Positions 39,203 to 46,341 of a DNA stretch of 64,000 bases are shown here, piece by piece. Location: positions 1-64,000 of the forward strand of contig JANQGH010000022.1 in NCBI GenBank assembly GCA_028277405.1. Reading direction: 5' to 3'. The stretch comes from Alphaproteobacteria bacterium. Lineage in GTDB: Bacteria; Pseudomonadota; Alphaproteobacteria; DSM-16000; Inquilinaceae. Within the stretch, counting starts at the first letter, position 1. Every line of letters starts with the position of its first letter. The notes under the pieces are model-generated. The model saw only the letters and a list, made by a program, of their open reading frames with translations. It did no database searches and was not told the origin of the DNA. The position numbers and the translations under genes are program-made.

Positions 39203-39363
39203 GCAGTCCTTGCGGCACTATCGCGGGGTTGGCGGTTCGATCACAGGAGATAGCCGCCGATCGAGCCCTGATACGAGAAACAGATCAGCAATTGGGTGTT
39301 GCTGGGTCGGGAGACGCATTGTAAATTGTTTAATTAAGCGTCGGTTCAATAAATAGTATTGTT

Positions 39364-41301
39364 ATGGCCAAACGCTACCATTCAGCATATGCCATGAGGC
39401 GGGCCGAGCGTCGCCGGCTTCGGGTTTTTGCATCCGATCCCATGATTGGCCGTCGCGGGGTCTATCGCATTACCATCGACGTGGAAAACGAGAAGCTGGA
39501 ACCCGGTCCGCGCGGCCGGTTGGTGGAGGTTTGGGACTATGACACCGTCCACAACGTCTACTACGCGCCCGTCAATCTGGACGACGACAACCATCTGATG
39601 GAGGACGGGCTCGCACCCAACGAGTCCGATCCGCGGTTTCATCAGCAGATGGTCTATGCGGTGACAATGCGGGTGATCGAAACCGCAAGCCGCGCACTCG
39701 GCCGGCCGCTCAGCTTCTATCGCGGCAGGAGTACGCCGCGTCTGCGCATCCTTCCGCACGGTTTCCAGGGCGAAAACGCCTTCTTTGATCCCGACACCAA
39801 TGCCCTGATCTTCGGCTACTTCAAGGCGCGCGAGGAAGACGCCGGCCCCAATATTCCCGGTCAACTGGTCTTCACCTGCCTGTCCCATGACATCATCGCA
39901 CACGAGATGACGCACGCGATCGTGCATCGTCTCAGGCGCTACTTCATCGAGCCCACCAATGTGGATGTGCACGCCTTCCATGAGGGCTTTTCCGATATTG
40001 TCGCGATCCTGGTGAAGTTCACCTATCGCGACCTGGTGGCCGAACTCGTGCGGGGGTCGGGCGGTCAGCTGTGGGAGGCTGGCGTTCTCGTCGATGTGGC
40101 CCAGCAATTCGGCCTGGCGCGTGGCACGGGCGAGGCGCTGCGCAGTGCCTATGAAGAGGAGGAGCCGGACCCGACCCGTCTGGCCAGAACGACCGAGGCG
40201 CATGCGCGCGGCGCAATCCTGTTGGGCGCCGTATTCGACGGCTTTTTCGCCGCCTACAGGTCGCGCATTGGGGGCCTTTTGAAGATCGGCGATGGCGGCC
40301 GGATCGCGGGCGGCGACCTGCACCCCGACCTGGTCAAGCGCATTGCCAACGAGGTTACCCAGCTTGCCGATCGGGTCCTGCGCATGTGCTTTCGCGCGTT
40401 CGACTACATGCCGCCGATCGACGTCACGTTCAGCGACTTCCTGCGTGCGCTGGTCACCTCGGATTACGCGCTCGACCCGGAAGACCGGGACGAGCTTCGC
40501 TACCATCTGGTCGAAGGTTTCCGCCGGCGCGGCATCTATCCGCGCGGTGTCACGTCACTTGCCGAAGAATCGCTGCTGTGGCCGGAGGGAGAGAGCAATC
40601 TTCCGCGACTAAGTCCGGACGGTCGCGGACTTGCCCAGTCGTTTCTGGGCATGTCGGCACTGGCGCTGGACGAGTTGGCGCGCGGGCAACCGGTCCGTTC
40701 GCCAGACGTGGAGTTTGTGCCCGCATCGGACGCCCTTCTGCGGTTTCAGAAGGTCGAAGTGAACCTCGACGAAATGGACCAGGCGGGAACCGGAATAGAC
40801 GGCGAAACCGACGAGCTCGATGACGAGTTGAGAGATATGAGGTCCCGGGTTGCTGGGATGCTGCACGGATATGCGCAGGAAAACGCGCCGCGCCTTGGCC
40901 TTGCCGATCCCAACTCGTATCGGATTTCGATCGCCGGTTTTCACGCGATCCAGCGCCAGTCGAGAAGCGGTCGGCTGCTCATCGAATTTGTCGTTCAAGT
41001 GGTTCAGAAAGATGAGTCCAACCTGGACCAGCGTGGCGGGGTTCCCTTGCGCGCCGGGGCGACCATCGTATTCAGCGCGGACGGTGTTCCGCGCTATGTG
41101 ATTTCAAAGCCGATGCCGGGCATAGGCTGGGATGACGCCGATATGGCGGCCCATGCAGAGGACCGCGAAAGAGACTTCGACGACGTCCTGGCCTTGATGG
41201 ACAAGTTTGATCCGCGGATGGCCTTCGCGGATGGCGACTACGCGGCAAGGCGCATGCGCGTGCGCGCCGCCTATCGCTCGCTTCACGAGGGGCATGGCTG
41301 A
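39364..41301 (+). CDS. Cytoplasmic HExxH metallopeptidase-like protein, gluzincin type
   Basis: A 645-residue protein of unassigned function. Residues 177-211 read IIAHEMTHAIVH followed 22 residues later by HEGFSD: a zinc motif HExxH (180-184) plus a third glutamate ligand (207), the arrangement of thermolysin-like gluzincins (HELTH and NEAISD). No signal peptide, pro-domain or membrane segment is present, so it should act in the cytoplasm, unlike secreted M4 enzymes. The C-terminal 200 residues contain an acidic segment (DGETDELDDELRDMRSRVAG) and no recognised domain. There is no clear ribosome site, and an AT-rich region (39318-39363) abuts the ATG. Its stop overlaps the next start. Confidence 0.7.
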   Translation: MAKRYHSAYAMRRAERRRLRVFASDPMIGRRGVYRITIDVENEKLEPGPRGRLVEVWDYDTVHNVYYAPVNLDDDNHLMEDGLAPNESDPRFHQQMVYAVTMRVIETASRALGRPLSFYRGRSTPRLRILPHGFQGENAFFDPDTNALIFGYFKAREEDAGPNIPGQLVFTCLSHDIIAHEMTHAIVHRLRRYFIEPTNVDVHAFHEGFSDIVAILVKFTYRDLVAELVRGSGGQLWEAGVLVDVAQQFGLARGTGEALRSAYEEEEPDPTRLARTTEAHARGAILLGAVFDGFFAAYRSRIGGLLKIGDGGRIAGGDLHPDLVKRIANEVTQLADRVLRMCFRAFDYMPPIDVTFSDFLRALVTSDYALDPEDRDELRYHLVEGFRRRGIYPRGVTSLAEESLLWPEGESNLPRLSPDGRGLAQSFLGMSALALDELARGQPVRSPDVEFVPASDALLRFQKVEVNLDEMDQAGTGIDGETDELDDELRDMRSRVAGMLHGYAQENAPRLGLADPNSYRISIAGFHAIQRQSRSGRLLIEFVVQVVQKDESNLDQRGGVPLRAGATIVFSADGVPRYVISKPMPGIGWDDADMAAHAEDRERDFDDVLALMDKFDPRMAFADGDYAARRMRVRAAYRSLHEGHG

Positions 41302-42569
41302 TGCCGCCAAGGGGTCGAGCCGCCGGCGCGCAGGCCGTGTCGAAGTCCAAAGTGGTTGTCCGCATGTATCGCATCGGGTTCGGCGACTGTTTCTTGCTCT
41401 TGGTCCCCGATGGTGACCGGCACCGTCGCATCCTGATCGATTGCGGATCCATCAAACGGGACCCGCACCTCGACAAGGGCGCCGGCGCCGTCGCCAAGCA
41501 AGTCATCAAGGACGTTACCGACGACGACGGAACGCCGCGCATCGATGTCGTGATCGCGACGCACCGCCACAAAGACCATGTGGGCGGCTTTGCCGACGAT
41601 GTCTGGGACACGGTCGAGGTCGGCGAGGTGTGGCTGCCTTGGACCGAGTCCGAGGACGATCCGGCGGCAACCGGCCTTCGGGCGCTGCAGGATCGGCTTG
41701 CCGACCGGCTTGCGGCCAGGCTCATGGCTGTGAACAAGCCTTGGCTGGCCGAACTGGCGGCGAATGCCCGGTCGAACGCGGATGCCATGGCTCGCCTTAC
41801 GAGTGGTTTCAAAACCCGGGCACGTCATAAGCCCCGCTATCTCGGCGCGGGCGAGCACGATCCTAAAAAGATCGCTACGCCGCACCTGCCAGGCGTTGAC
41901 GTGCATGTCCTCGGGCCCCCGCGTGACGAGAGAGTTATCGGGCGGGAGTTGCCCCAGGACGATGGGGAGCTCTATCTGAGGCTCGGTGCCGATGCCGATC
42001 CGGTCGCGCCGCCCAGCCCCGATTTGATGCAGCCATTCGGCAACCAATGGGTTCTCGATTCGCCAAGCCACCAGTTGGAGGAACGCCATATCGCGATGCT
42101 GCGAGATGCCGTGCGCTTCGATCCGGAATCGGTGCTGGCCGCGATCGACGACGCGCTGAACAACACCAGCCTGATTTTGGTGTTTGAGGTCGGCGGCCGG
42201 TTCTTGCTGTTTCCGGGCGACGCCCAGTGGGGGCCGTGGCAGATGATCCTGGCGGATGACGAGGCCATCCGTCTTCTGCACAAGACGTCCTTCTACAAGG
42301 TCGGACACCATGCCAGCCACAACGCGACGCCCCGCGATTTCGTCGAGGCGGTAGTCGGCAAGGAAAGCGCTGAACCGCTTGCTGCGATGGTCTCAGTGAC
42401 GGAGCATGGCAGCTACAGCGATATCCCCCGCCAGCCGTTGATGGAGGCGCTTCGCCGCCGCTTCGATCATGTTGCCGTCAGCGACGTGAAAGGCGACCAG
42501 TCCGGTTTCACCCGGGCCACCAAGTGGTCGATCGACTTCGAGTTCGAGCCTGCATTACCTTTGGGGTGA
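41301..42569 (+). CDS. ComEC-like metallo-beta-lactamase-fold hydrolase
   Basis: A 422-residue protein with the metallo-beta-lactamase fold. MYRIGFGDCFLLLV opens the fold, the metal motif is THRHKDHVGG (His88, His90, Asp92, His93), and the later LILVFEVGGRFLLFPGD and KVGHHASHNAT match the soluble MBL domain of ComEC-type proteins. No membrane part is present. Substrate unknown: ComEC-like MBL proteins include nucleases and phosphodiesterases. The ATG shares one base with the peptidase stop (TGATG), implying coupled synthesis and joint function. Confidence 0.8.
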   Translation: MPPRGRAAGAQAVSKSKVVVRMYRIGFGDCFLLLVPDGDRHRRILIDCGSIKRDPHLDKGAGAVAKQVIKDVTDDDGTPRIDVVIATHRHKDHVGGFADDVWDTVEVGEVWLPWTESEDDPAATGLRALQDRLADRLAARLMAVNKPWLAELAANARSNADAMARLTSGFKTRARHKPRYLGAGEHDPKKIATPHLPGVDVHVLGPPRDERVIGRELPQDDGELYLRLGADADPVAPPSPDLMQPFGNQWVLDSPSHQLEERHIAMLRDAVRFDPESVLAAIDDALNNTSLILVFEVGGRFLLFPGDAQWGPWQMILADDEAIRLLHKTSFYKVGHHASHNATPRDFVEAVVGKESAEPLAAMVSVTEHGSYSDIPRQPLMEALRRRFDHVAVSDVKGDQSGFTRATKWSIDFEFEPALPLG

Positions 42570-42966
42570 ACGACGATCGTGCGGTCGAAGCGGTTTGGTG
42601 ACAGGCGCGCCGGCCTCGATCTAGGCACTTAGCGCCCCTTCAGGTGCCCATCACGGCGATGGCTGGATTGAACCGTGCGCGCTGCCACGTGACGACCTTG
42701 GTGGGTCTGCTCTGCGTTGCGGCACCAGCGCGCCGGGCCGGTGGCCATCAAAGGGGGGCAGCCAGAACTGCGACTCGCGGCTGCGTTTTGCGGCTGCCGC
42801 GCTGCCGACGCAGGTTTGCCACAGTTCAGGCAACAGTCGCCGATACGCTTACCCATCAGTGCGTTATCTCCCGTAGCTGCTCGCACAGCGAGTGTTCCGT
42901 TCGTGCCTGTCAATCCTGAAACCAGGCGCCGCACTGTTGCGGCGGCCAGATGCAAAGGTCCGACCC
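42570..42966. other. Spacer before the glucanase gene
   Basis: A 397-base stretch without a firm gene. A minus-strand frame from ATG 42856 to 42629 would encode about 75 residues starting MGKRIGDCCLNCGKPASAAR, with GGGAGA ten bases upstream; its cysteines hint at a zinc site but I cannot support it as a gene. No convincing promoter or terminator was found. Confidence 0.4.
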
Positions 42967-45900
42967 ATGCCTCTTTCCGAATCGTCGACCGCCGATCTCG
43001 ATGTCGTTCTGCGCGACAATTGGGGCAGCGGCATCGTCGTCGATCTGACCCTGACGGCCGAACAGTCGCTCAACGGCTGGACCATCGAGTTCGAGTATGA
43101 TGGCGACATCGTCAATATTTGGAATGCGCGCATCGTATCCCAGGTGGGCAACCGGTATGTGATCGAAAGCCTCGGCTACAACAGTGCGCTCGCCGCCGGC
43201 GCCTCGACCGGGTTCGGCTTTCAGGGCAGCGGCAGCGCGACCGAGATCACGCCGATCTCGATCAACGGCGATCCGTTCGACGGTGGCGGCGGGGGCGAAC
43301 CGGCACCTGACCCGCTGCCCACCGTCTCGGTCGGCGACGCGCTGGCGTCGGAAGAGGACGGGACGATCGCGTTCACGCTGACCCTGTCGGAGGCTGCCGC
43401 CGAGGACGTGGTGGTGAGCTACCAGACGGTGGCGGGATCGGCGGGCGCCGGCAGCGACTTCGTCGCCGCCCAGTCGCAGGTCGTGATCGCCGCCGGTCAG
43501 ACGACGGCCACGGTGACCATTCAGCTTGCCGACGACGAGACCCCCGAGGCGACCGAGCAGTTCGAGCTGCGCCTTGTCTCCGCCGACGGAGCCGACATCG
43601 CCGATGGCTCGGGCATCGGCCAGATCACCGACGGCGACACCGATCCGACTCCGCCGCCCGCTGCCGTGGTCTCGGTAGCTGATGCCAGCGTGACCGAGGG
43701 CGATCCGGGGGATGGCGGTTCCGGCGGCGGCACACCGTTGCCGGCTGGAAGCCTGATCGCGGACGGGCCGCTGTCGACTTCGGGCAACCAGATCGTCGAC
43801 GCGAACGGCAATCCGGTGCAGATCCGCGCGATCAACTGGTTCGGCGCCGAGAACGATGTGCGCGCGCCGCACGGGCTTTGGACGCGGCCGATGACCGACA
43901 TGATGGACCAGATGGTCGAGGAGGGGTTCAACGCCATCCGGCTGCCGTTCTCGGTCCAGAACATCTTGGAGAACCAGGTGGCCACGTCGGTCGCCGGCGA
44001 TCCCAGCCTGGTCGGCCTGACGACGCTGGAAATCTTCGACGAAATCGTCGCCTATGCCGAACAGATCGGCATCAAGATCATCCTCGACGCGCACCGGATC
44101 ACCCAGGGCAACGGCGCGGAAGGCATCTGGTATGCCGGCGGCTTTGACGAGGGCGACTGGATTGGCGCCTGGGAAATCCTGGCCGAACGCTATGGCGACA
44201 GCCCGGCGGTGATCGGCGCGGACCTGTTCAACGAGCCGCACCTGGGCACCTGGGGCACCGGCCAGCGGAACGATTGGGCGGCGGCGGCCGAGCAGGCGGG
44301 CAACGCCGTTCTGGACATCGCGCCCGACTGGCTGATCCTGGTCGAGGGCATCGGCAGCTATCAGGGCGACAATTACTGGTGGGGCGGCCAGCTTCAGGGT
44401 GTGCGCGACCGGCCGGTCGAGCTCAACGTCGACAACAAGCTGGTCTACTCGCCGCACGACTATCCGGCCTCGGTCTACCCGCAGCCCTGGTTCACCGATG
44501 GCTCGAACCTTTACAACGTCTTCCGCGATGCCTGGGGCTTCATCTATGAGGAGGAGATCGCCCCGATCCTGTTGGGCGAATTCGGCTCGCGGCTGGAAAC
44601 CCCGCTGGACCAGGCCTGGGCCGACGCGATCACGACCTATCTCGCCGGCGACTTCGATGGCGACGGGGTGAGCGACCTCGACCCGGGCGAGGTGGGGATG
44701 AGCTTCGCCTGGTGGTCCTGGAACCCCAACTCCGGCGACACGGGCGGCTATCTGCAAGATGACTGGCGGACGGTGCGGCAGAACGCAGCGGAGCTGCTCG
44801 ATCCGCTTCTGGACGGGGACGCGGCTGGCGATCCAGGGGGCGGCGGGCCGGTCCTCATCACCTTCGACGTGCTGCTGGACGCGCCGTCGACGGGCGTCAG
44901 CTACGCCTACGAAACCCGCGACGGCACGGCGACGGCGGGTGAGGACTATGTCGCCAGTTCCGGCACAGTCAGCTTCGCGGCCGGACAGCAGGCGGCGCAA
45001 ATCCAGATCGAGGTGTTGCCCGACAGCGATCTGGAGGGCGACGAGACGTTCAGCCTGGTTCTGTTCGATCTCGACGGCAGCGAGGTGGTCGCCACCGGCA
45101 CGATCGTCGATGACGACGCGGCGGGCGGCGATCCCGATCCTGTCGACCCGGACCCAGATCCCGACCCGGTCGATCCAGATCCCGACCCGGACCCCGGCCA
45201 TCATCACCCGGGCGCGTTCACCGACATCACCATCTGGGGCTCGTTCCACGGCTCCAGCAGCCATACCGGGCATGGCGATCTGGAAGGCGGGCGCACGGCA
45301 ATCACGACCGAGGCGCTGGTCGCCTATAACGGCCTGCGCAACTTCCTCGGCCTGGAAGACACCGCGCTCCAGACCATCGGCCAATGGGCGTTTGATAACG
45401 GCATGACCAACAACGGCCAGCCTTACGGCGATGATCTGTTCGGCGTTGGGCTGTTCTACGCGATGCAGGGCGCGAAGGTGGGCTGGATCCGCGACGACGC
45501 CTTCGATCCGCAGATCCTCGCCGACATCCAGCGCGAGGCCAGGCTGGGCGACGCCAGTGTCGTCATGGAGATGGTCGCGGATTACGGCCATGAAGGCTTC
45601 GCCGACTACCTCACGCAAAACGATCTCATCGACCATTTCGTGAACACACTGAAGATGGAGCCCCATTACGGCGGCTGGATGCATGGCCGCGTCCATGGCG
45701 GCCTGGTCTTCCCGGACGGCGAGGGCGCGCGCTCGCATGACGTGAACCATCTGACCGTGCTCAGTCACGACCAGACCCAGCCCTTCATGAACGACACCTT
45801 CGATTGGCCGCAATGGGCGGCGCTCAACGTGCCGCACCAAGACGTGATCGACTACTTCCAAAGCATGGTTGTGCTCGGCGATCCGCTGGGGGATGCGCTG

Positions 45901-46341
45901 CCCGCCGACGGCCAGCCGAATCCGCCGGTCGACCCCGACCCCGACCCGGATCCGGTGGATCCCAACCCCGATCCTGACCCGGTGGACCCGGACCCAACCG
46001 ATCCGCTGCCCGACGACGGTTCGGAGAGCCTCGACGCCCGGCTGAAGGTCGTCAATGACTGGGGCAGTGGCGCCGTCATCCACCTGGAGATCAGCAATGT
46101 CGACCAGTTCCAGTTCAACGACGGCTGGACCGTTGAATTCGATCTCGACCCGGACTGGATCTCCGGAAGTTGGAACAGCGACTGGAGCCCGACGAACGGT
46201 TCCGATGGCCTGACGGTCTCGGATGTTGGCTGGAACGGCTCGATCGGCGCCGGCCAGACCATTGCCGTTGGCTTCCAGCTCAACATCGGCAATTTGGACG
46301 AGGACGCCCTCAACGCGGATGCCGGCTTCCTTTTCCTCTGA
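42967..46341 (+). CDS. Multidomain GH5 glucanase with CBM2-like and Calx-beta modules
   Basis: An 1124-residue modular enzyme. Order: CBM2-like cellulose-binding module (1-105), Calx-beta (about 115-225), GH5 catalytic domain (about 262-620), second Calx-beta (about 630-720), DPDP linker, an unidentified histidine-rich domain (about 745-975), second DPDP linker, and a C-terminal CBM2-like module. The GH5 acid/base is Glu423 (DLFNEPHLGTW) and the nucleophile Glu538 (LLGEFGS). No signal peptide exists at this start or at the upstream in-frame ATG 42892, so type I secretion through the hydrophobic C terminus (GFLFL) is possible. Likely hydrolyses cellulose or another beta-glucan. Confidence 0.88.
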   Translation: MPLSESSTADLDVVLRDNWGSGIVVDLTLTAEQSLNGWTIEFEYDGDIVNIWNARIVSQVGNRYVIESLGYNSALAAGASTGFGFQGSGSATEITPISINGDPFDGGGGGEPAPDPLPTVSVGDALASEEDGTIAFTLTLSEAAAEDVVVSYQTVAGSAGAGSDFVAAQSQVVIAAGQTTATVTIQLADDETPEATEQFELRLVSADGADIADGSGIGQITDGDTDPTPPPAAVVSVADASVTEGDPGDGGSGGGTPLPAGSLIADGPLSTSGNQIVDANGNPVQIRAINWFGAENDVRAPHGLWTRPMTDMMDQMVEEGFNAIRLPFSVQNILENQVATSVAGDPSLVGLTTLEIFDEIVAYAEQIGIKIILDAHRITQGNGAEGIWYAGGFDEGDWIGAWEILAERYGDSPAVIGADLFNEPHLGTWGTGQRNDWAAAAEQAGNAVLDIAPDWLILVEGIGSYQGDNYWWGGQLQGVRDRPVELNVDNKLVYSPHDYPASVYPQPWFTDGSNLYNVFRDAWGFIYEEEIAPILLGEFGSRLETPLDQAWADAITTYLAGDFDGDGVSDLDPGEVGMSFAWWSWNPNSGDTGGYLQDDWRTVRQNAAELLDPLLDGDAAGDPGGGGPVLITFDVLLDAPSTGVSYAYETRDGTATAGEDYVASSGTVSFAAGQQAAQIQIEVLPDSDLEGDETFSLVLFDLDGSEVVATGTIVDDDAAGGDPDPVDPDPDPDPVDPDPDPDPGHHHPGAFTDITIWGSFHGSSSHTGHGDLEGGRTAITTEALVAYNGLRNFLGLEDTALQTIGQWAFDNGMTNNGQPYGDDLFGVGLFYAMQGAKVGWIRDDAFDPQILADIQREARLGDASVVMEMVADYGHEGFADYLTQNDLIDHFVNTLKMEPHYGGWMHGRVHGGLVFPDGEGARSHDVNHLTVLSHDQTQPFMNDTFDWPQWAALNVPHQDVIDYFQSMVVLGDPLGDALPADGQPNPPVDPDPDPDPVDPNPDPDPVDPDPTDPLPDDGSESLDARLKVVNDWGSGAVIHLEISNVDQFQFNDGWTVEFDLDPDWISGSWNSDWSPTNGSDGLTVSDVGWNGSIGAGQTIAVGFQLNIGNLDEDALNADAGFLFL
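45124..45201 (+). repeat. DPDP linker 1 of the glucanase
   Basis: Codons alternate for Asp and Pro with occasional Val (DPDPVDPDPDPDPVDPD type), forming a stiff acidic linker between the second Calx-beta module and the histidine-rich module. A second copy of the same repeat type occurs at 45925-46010. Confidence 0.75.
45925..46010 (+). repeat. DPDP linker 2 of the glucanase
   Basis: Same Asp-Pro repeat type as at 45124-45201, here separating the histidine-rich module from the C-terminal CBM2-like module. The two linkers mark the module borders. Confidence 0.75.

Follow-up and report, generated by a model that had tools for sequence, protein, structure and literature searches.

What do a metallopeptidase-like protein and a nuclease-like hydrolase do together when their genes share a single base? 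In the window, by which we mean the whole 64,000-nucleotide stretch of alphaproteobacterial DNA analysed, a gluzincin metallopeptidase-like protein (PEP) is encoded directly ahead of a ComEC-like MBL-fold hydrolase (MBL). A first-pass annotation made from the sequence alone had proposed both genes and compared the pair with predicted conflict and stress-response modules. Both ORFs were confirmed, at 39364-41301 and 41301-42569, with a one-base overlap.

The locus and its surroundings

39203-39363, no strand: intergenic stretch ahead of the pair, 161 bases, probable own promoter region (judged from GC content)
39364-41301, + strand: PEP, gluzincin metallopeptidase-like protein, 645 aa (ORF; AlphaFold2 model; no family above cut-off)
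41287-41303, + strand: Shine-Dalgarno-like GAGGGG (41287-41292) and TGATG stop/start overlap (41299-41303) (sequence)
41301-42569, + strand: MBL, soluble ComEC-like MBL-fold hydrolase, 422 aa, predicted gated pro-nuclease (ORF; AlphaFold2 model; fold match; weak profile matches)

The PEP stop codon TGA (41299-41301) and the MBL start codon ATG (41301-41303) have one base in common, and the GAGGGG stretch lies 8 nt ahead of the MBL start. Together these features point to translational coupling of the two genes. The intergenic stretch has a GC content of 49.7%, against 64.7% for the whole window, and this AT-richer 161-base gap after the upstream operon makes it likely that the pair is its own transcription unit, with its own promoter in 39203-39363. 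A search of that stretch for a sigma-70 consensus promoter found none.

The neighbours are as first described: a sugar ABC operon lies upstream, and the downstream glucanase is a GH5 cellulase that also carries CBM2 and Calx-beta domains. No defence island was seen within the 64-kb window around the pair, where the neighbouring genes are metabolic. The cellulase (42892-46341, 1149 aa) has CBM2 and Calx-beta stretches, two of each. The same DNA also contains, in antisense orientation, an ORF of 1159 aa that is probably open only through high GC.

PEP is predicted to be a new family within the M36/M4 fold

PEP contains an HExxH motif and a downstream Glu ligand, as do gluzincins of clan MA(E). 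Conservation was counted in an alignment of 54 PEP-MBL pairs and, for PEP, also in a separate alignment (A1, n = 27).

39901-39915, + strand: HExxH zinc motif HEMTH, residues 180-184 (H180, E181 and H184 invariant in 54/54 pairs and in 27/27 sequences of alignment A1)
39979-39996, + strand: HEGFSD, residues 206-211, with the third zinc ligand E207 and D211 (H206, E207 and D211 invariant in 54/54)
40201-40203, + strand: H280, candidate counterpart of thermolysin His231 (invariant in 54/54)

HEGFSD begins 22 residues past the second His of HEMTH and is followed by the isolated H280. We take HEGFSD to correspond to the NEAxSD motif of M4 peptidases.

An AlphaFold2 model built with 20 relatives (pLDDT 76.7, pTM 0.83) predicts a catalytic domain at about residues 13-408, a disordered linker at about 440-485 and a C-terminal helix-strand-helix domain that extends to residue 645. 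The model matches M36 fungalysins best, with Z 18.7 across 320 residues; M4 vibriolysin and thermolysin follow at Z 16-17.1 (best 17.1 over 284 residues). These M36 and M4 scores are far above those of other zincins, and the predicted fold is thermolysin/M36-like, in keeping with the thermolysin-like site expected by the first-pass annotation.

PEP falls below the Pfam cut-offs for both families (12.9 vs 23.3 bits for M36, 12.0 vs 22.4 bits for M4), and no Pfam, NCBIfam or PADLOC model matched it above cut-off. Sequence searches of solved structures, with PEP itself and with a profile of 27 relatives, found nothing. Domain searches of the window PEP detected no trypsin, caspase or defence domain. 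By eye, the N terminus has no visible signal sequence, as had been noted earlier, and no visible propeptide precedes the catalytic domain, which is predicted to start near residue 13. Read in this way from its N terminus, PEP is probably a cytoplasmic protein.

PEP thus resembles M36 (fungalysin) and M4 (thermolysin, vibriolysin) peptidases of clan MA(E) in its HExxH...E site, the following Asp, the downstream His and its predicted fold (Z 15-18.7). It differs from them in having no visible signal or propeptide, in its extra C-terminal domain, in its sub-threshold Pfam scores and in its identity of 12-17% to solved structures. On the predicted structure, PEP is a new family within the M36/M4 fold that has acquired no existing label and has an extra C-terminal domain.

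MBL has a ComEC-like fold with two insertion-bearing segments

41562-41579, + strand: HxHxDH metal motif (HRHKDH), residues 88-93 (H88, H90, D92 and H93 invariant in 54/54)
41580-41909, + strand: insertion-bearing segment 1, HxHxDH to VLGPP, 110 aa here (family range 109-156 aa)
41919-42158, + strand: insertion-bearing segment 2, VLGPP to NNTSL, 80 aa here (family range 69-131 aa; residues 225-249 predicted disordered)
42033-42038, + strand: Pro245-Phe246 in the disordered part of segment 2, candidate recognition or cut site (from conservation)
42216-42224, + strand: GDA, residues 306-308, with metal-bridging D307 (invariant in 54/54)
42306-42323, + strand: HHASHN, residues 336-341 (H336, H337, S339 and N341 invariant in 54/54)

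The HRHKDH and HHASHN motifs that the first-pass annotation had pointed out are both present, at residues 88-93 and 336-341. The AlphaFold2 model of MBL (pLDDT 79.1, pTM 0.82) has as its best match the MBL domain of ComEC (9ic4, Z 23.1, 257/266 residues aligned), which agrees with the earlier reading as a ComEC-like protein. MBL combines HxHxDH, a bridging Asp, an HHxS-type motif and this predicted fold. Both proteins of the pair keep complete metal-binding and catalytic residues.

Profile searches returned weak matches to the antiphage MBL families 6A-MBL, Avs1a, LmuA and RTasMBL. MBL stays under the cut-offs of the named models (45.8 vs 220 bits for 6A-MBL, 27.4 vs 420 bits for Avs1a).

The soluble MBL domain of ComEC is like the window MBL in fold and metal motifs, but MBL has about 120 extra residues in two segments and lacks a competence membrane domain. 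The whole HxxxDH-to-NNxSL stretch of ComEC 9ic4 is about 70 residues long, and relative to it MBL has two insertions between HxHxDH and NNxSL, which is the layout of gated MBL proteins. In a Canu-type MBL that adjoins one of the loci described below (L039), the corresponding segments are 94 and 71 aa. By analogy, the active site of MBL is probably blocked by its extra loops. Within the disordered part of segment 2, Phe246 is kept in 50/54 aligned pairs and Pro-Phe in 43/54; the surrounding columns are poorly conserved (mean top residue frequency 0.25).

Relationship to known protease-nuclease systems

In Hachiman and AVAST, the ComEC-like MBL proteins were shown to be pro-nucleases: two disordered insertions gate the enzyme, and a trypsin-like partner frees it (Tuck et al., Science 2025, PMC12799240). 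HamM, a demonstrated DNase, and Avs1a are cut by trypsin-like partners, and CanC is activated by its caspase complex in Canu (PMC12799240). The paper also mentions MBL homologues paired with other protease families (PMC12799240). The first-pass annotation knew of no described system of such composition; this view is outdated, as the paper describes MBL pro-nucleases with trypsin-like or caspase partners (PMC12799240). Among the publications that literature searches brought up, PMC12799240 alone was directly relevant; its supplementary figure S2 covers further protease families, and the gluzincin pairing may already stand there.

In the sequence, the MBL insertions occupy the same positions as the gating insertions of the antiphage pro-nucleases. 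AVAST type 1 (Avs1a/Avs1b), Hachiman HamMAB, Lamassu and DRT variants (PMC12799240) resemble the window pair in that a ComEC-like MBL with two insertion-bearing segments lies beside a protease, in that the two families co-diverge, and in their patchy, mobile distribution. The pair differs from them in several respects. Its protease is a stand-alone gluzincin, whereas in those systems HamA, Avs or Lmu proteins carry the protease as a fused trypsin-like domain. Its gene order is protease then nuclease, it has no fused sensor ATPase or helicase, and insertions of the window type lack the conserved Ile of HamM and Avs1a.

Canu (CanABC, PMC12799240) is like the pair in having the protease gene upstream and the MBL nuclease gene downstream, and the MBL proteins are related. 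The pair differs from Canu in its gluzincin in place of a caspase, in the absence of a CanB-like gene and in its loop motif (Pro-Phe vs Gly). Because the pair lacks the defining features tested (a trypsin fusion, a caspase, scores above model cut-offs), we do not file it under any named system. By analogy, it is best called a variant of the nuclease-protease modules that would work as they do.

Proposed mechanism

We propose that the two genes form a protease-nuclease effector module in which cleavage by PEP frees a gated MBL DNase, a reading to which we give an even chance. MBL would be a DNase held inactive by its two insertions. PEP would respond to a signal, which its C-terminal part or partner proteins probably sense, by cleaving the MBL insertions; the conserved Pro-Phe is a possible site. 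Once freed, MBL would degrade DNA, leading to a growth stop of the infected or damaged cell.

Thermolysin-like enzymes favour cutting before bulky hydrophobic residues. Given this preference and the conserved Phe in a disordered loop, Pro245-Phe246 is a good candidate for the site that PEP cuts or recognizes. The conserved Pro-Phe is a sharp prediction, testable by single mutation.

PEP and MBL recur together in distant genomes

Loci were gathered by PEP only: genome contigs were scanned, plasmids and phages were searched by tblastn, and whole genomes were searched with profiles (1,790 genome look-ups, with some genomes counted more than once). Every reading frame of the gathered loci was then compared with models of PEP, of MBL and of the partner families. 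We obtained 74 PEP genes, two of them at contig ends, which leaves 72 assessable. MBL lies directly downstream on the same strand at 59 of the 72 and is absent at 13, so PEP must also work without MBL. In the reverse direction, 36/37 plasmid records that match MBL also match PEP, and the exception is a weak partial match. When 20 control regions from these genomes were searched, none contained a match to the MBL family.

The PEP and MBL distance matrices agree (r 0.805, Mantel p < 0.0005, n = 50; no permutation above 0.265). This correlation fits joint inheritance or transfer, and shared vertical descent alone could also give it. According to record titles, the hosts of the pair span at least seven phyla (Pseudomonadota, Desulfobacterota, Bacteroidota, Acidobacteriota, Planctomycetota, Chloroflexota and Deinococcota). 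The pairing is not chance, given that none of the zinc ligands or catalytic residues varies among the 54 aligned pairs and that the recurrence is far beyond expectation. PEP and MBL belong together and have co-diverged. The recurrence in unrelated genomes foreseen by the first-pass annotation was therefore found; the two families are not rarely adjacent elsewhere, and neither protein turned out to belong to a known housekeeping family.

The module is rare, at about 2-6% of genomes per sampled group, and within one genus it is present in two genomes and absent from two. Searches of 16 genomes of the same family as the window's detected no PEP family members, only distant paralogues, and no close homologue of the neighbouring permease that could serve an empty-site comparison. 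One Desulfobulbaceae contig (L008:1354-9629) has two tandem PEP-MBL pairs with a subtilase gene in between.

Partner genes vary around PEP

Partners typical of conflict systems (patatin, subtilase and caspase) were found at the loci, in keeping with the initial comparison to conflict modules. Patatin occurs beside 15 MBL-bearing loci, upstream at 10 and downstream at 5. A subtilase is fused ahead of PEP at nine loci with MBL and at four without it, and a separate subtilase gene is present at a few further loci. An Amidase_2 and caspase protein is encoded upstream of PEP at seven loci without MBL and at one more that lies at a contig end. A PLD-like gene adjoins one locus. This swapping of MBL, patatin, subtilase and caspase identifies PEP as the constant element. 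In the proposed mechanism, patatin or the N-terminal subtilase would serve as a further effector or act upstream as an activator; in a minority branch, a caspase protein would stand in for MBL.

At L017:5078-9779, L020, L021, L023, L024, L055 and L056, which lack MBL, the protein encoded directly upstream of PEP comprises Amidase_2, an alpha/beta-hydrolase-like middle with a GHSAG motif, and caspase. A divergent homologue at L096, labelled 'serine protease' in its record, was considered as a trypsin fusion and rejected, as no Pfam domain was found.

PEP and MBL could also be parallel effectors that a third component, a sensor or protease (the subtilase, caspase or patatin partner), releases or activates, with PEP acting directly on host or phage proteins. 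The presence of PEP without MBL at four subtilase-fusion loci and seven caspase loci indicates that PEP has a use of its own, as this arrangement would have it. MBL proteins of this subfamily hardly ever occur without PEP, however, and their insertions resemble those of protease-gated nucleases; we regard parallel action as unlikely, though worth serious consideration.

Genomic context and a probable role in defence

Several loci lie near known defence genes. Restriction endonucleases and a NACHT protein are encoded near the pair at L026, a CBASS cyclase with SAVED at L028, and two SIR2 proteins at L031. Hachiman HamA, confirmed by Pfam, adjoins L096 and L099. Finally, a Canu-like operon (L039:13816-17477, - strand), identified by gene order and motifs, lies opposite and tail to tail with a PEP-MBL-patatin locus, about 0.7 kb apart. 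It encodes a caspase-like protein (390 aa), a CanB-like middle protein (446 aa) and a CanC-like MBL (376 aa, with THVDGDH and PHHGS). On the two rhizobial plasmids with hamA (L099:7734-16006 and L096:4888-12044), the pair is accompanied by a helicase or hamB-sized gene, and the gene order differs.

Near 20 chromosomal loci we counted 45 PADLOC families; proteins are not named in the tally, and these families probably represent about 7-8 distinct ones among 100. Matched control regions gave 4 families, from about 2 proteins among 97. We do not regard this difference as significant: broad families (Ser/Thr kinases, for example) add to the count, and genes of the window itself reach similar scores. 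Chromosomal enrichment near the loci is not clearly above that of the matched controls. The defence-island context is clear on several plasmids and at L039, and the chromosomal tally against controls is weak. The first-pass suggestion that the pair would often occupy variable regions thus holds for several plasmids, plasmid carriage being frequent, and for the one chromosomal locus by a Canu-like operon. It does not extend to the chromosomal loci as a set or to the window, which has no defence island. Carriage by phages was not established, as viral contigs gave only distant relatives (25-30% identical); in the phage collection, a true pair was found on a single scaffold of 9.5 kb, which is unannotated and bears the label Bacteriophage sp.

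Several copies, the window's included, sit among metabolic genes, and this, together with the lack of clear PADLOC enrichment, would suit an ordinary metabolic or stress-response pair, active for example in protein or peptide turnover and with no conflict role. We consider such a pair improbable, as the module is rare, patchy and often plasmid-borne, and its swapping of patatin, subtilase and caspase partners is unlike housekeeping. It is likewise improbable that MBL is a phosphodiesterase that acts on lipids or cell-wall phosphocholine rather than DNA and attacks membranes with patatin or PLD-like partners: the second match of the MBL model is the phosphorylcholine esterase Pce (Z 20.4), and patatin lies near 15 MBL-bearing loci and a PLD-like gene beside one, but ComEC is closer by both sequence (5e-11) and structure (Z 23.1), and the nearest named relatives are antiphage MBL proteins, among which HamM is a shown DNase (PMC12799240).

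Returning to the protease-nuclease module, we hold a role in defence or immunity to be likely. More tentatively, and with somewhat less than an even chance in our estimate, it may be an undescribed, widespread immune module in which a thermolysin-type metalloprotease activates a gated DNase and in which subtilase, caspase and patatin are interchangeable components. Trypsin-like, caspase and gluzincin proteases, which are unrelated classes, would then have come independently to unlock the same pro-nuclease fold. As far as is known, protease-triggered DNA-cutting modules have so far been shown only with trypsin-like and caspase-like proteases. If the proposal is true, nucleases unlocked by proteases would be a broader principle, one that takes in metalloproteases and spans at least seven phyla, and a testable role would be gained for a peptidase family that is strongly conserved and has no database model.

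Distant gluzincin relatives

We also observed a distant gluzincin family of 390-440 aa with HEVGH or HEFGH motifs and 24-28% identity (L006, L002, L004, L005 and L102-L115). Viral contigs contain similar sequences. The distant gluzincins are encoded directly downstream of a TfuA-like gene in four genomes, one of which is that of the window (C38), and this association suggests a link to RiPPs or thioamidation.
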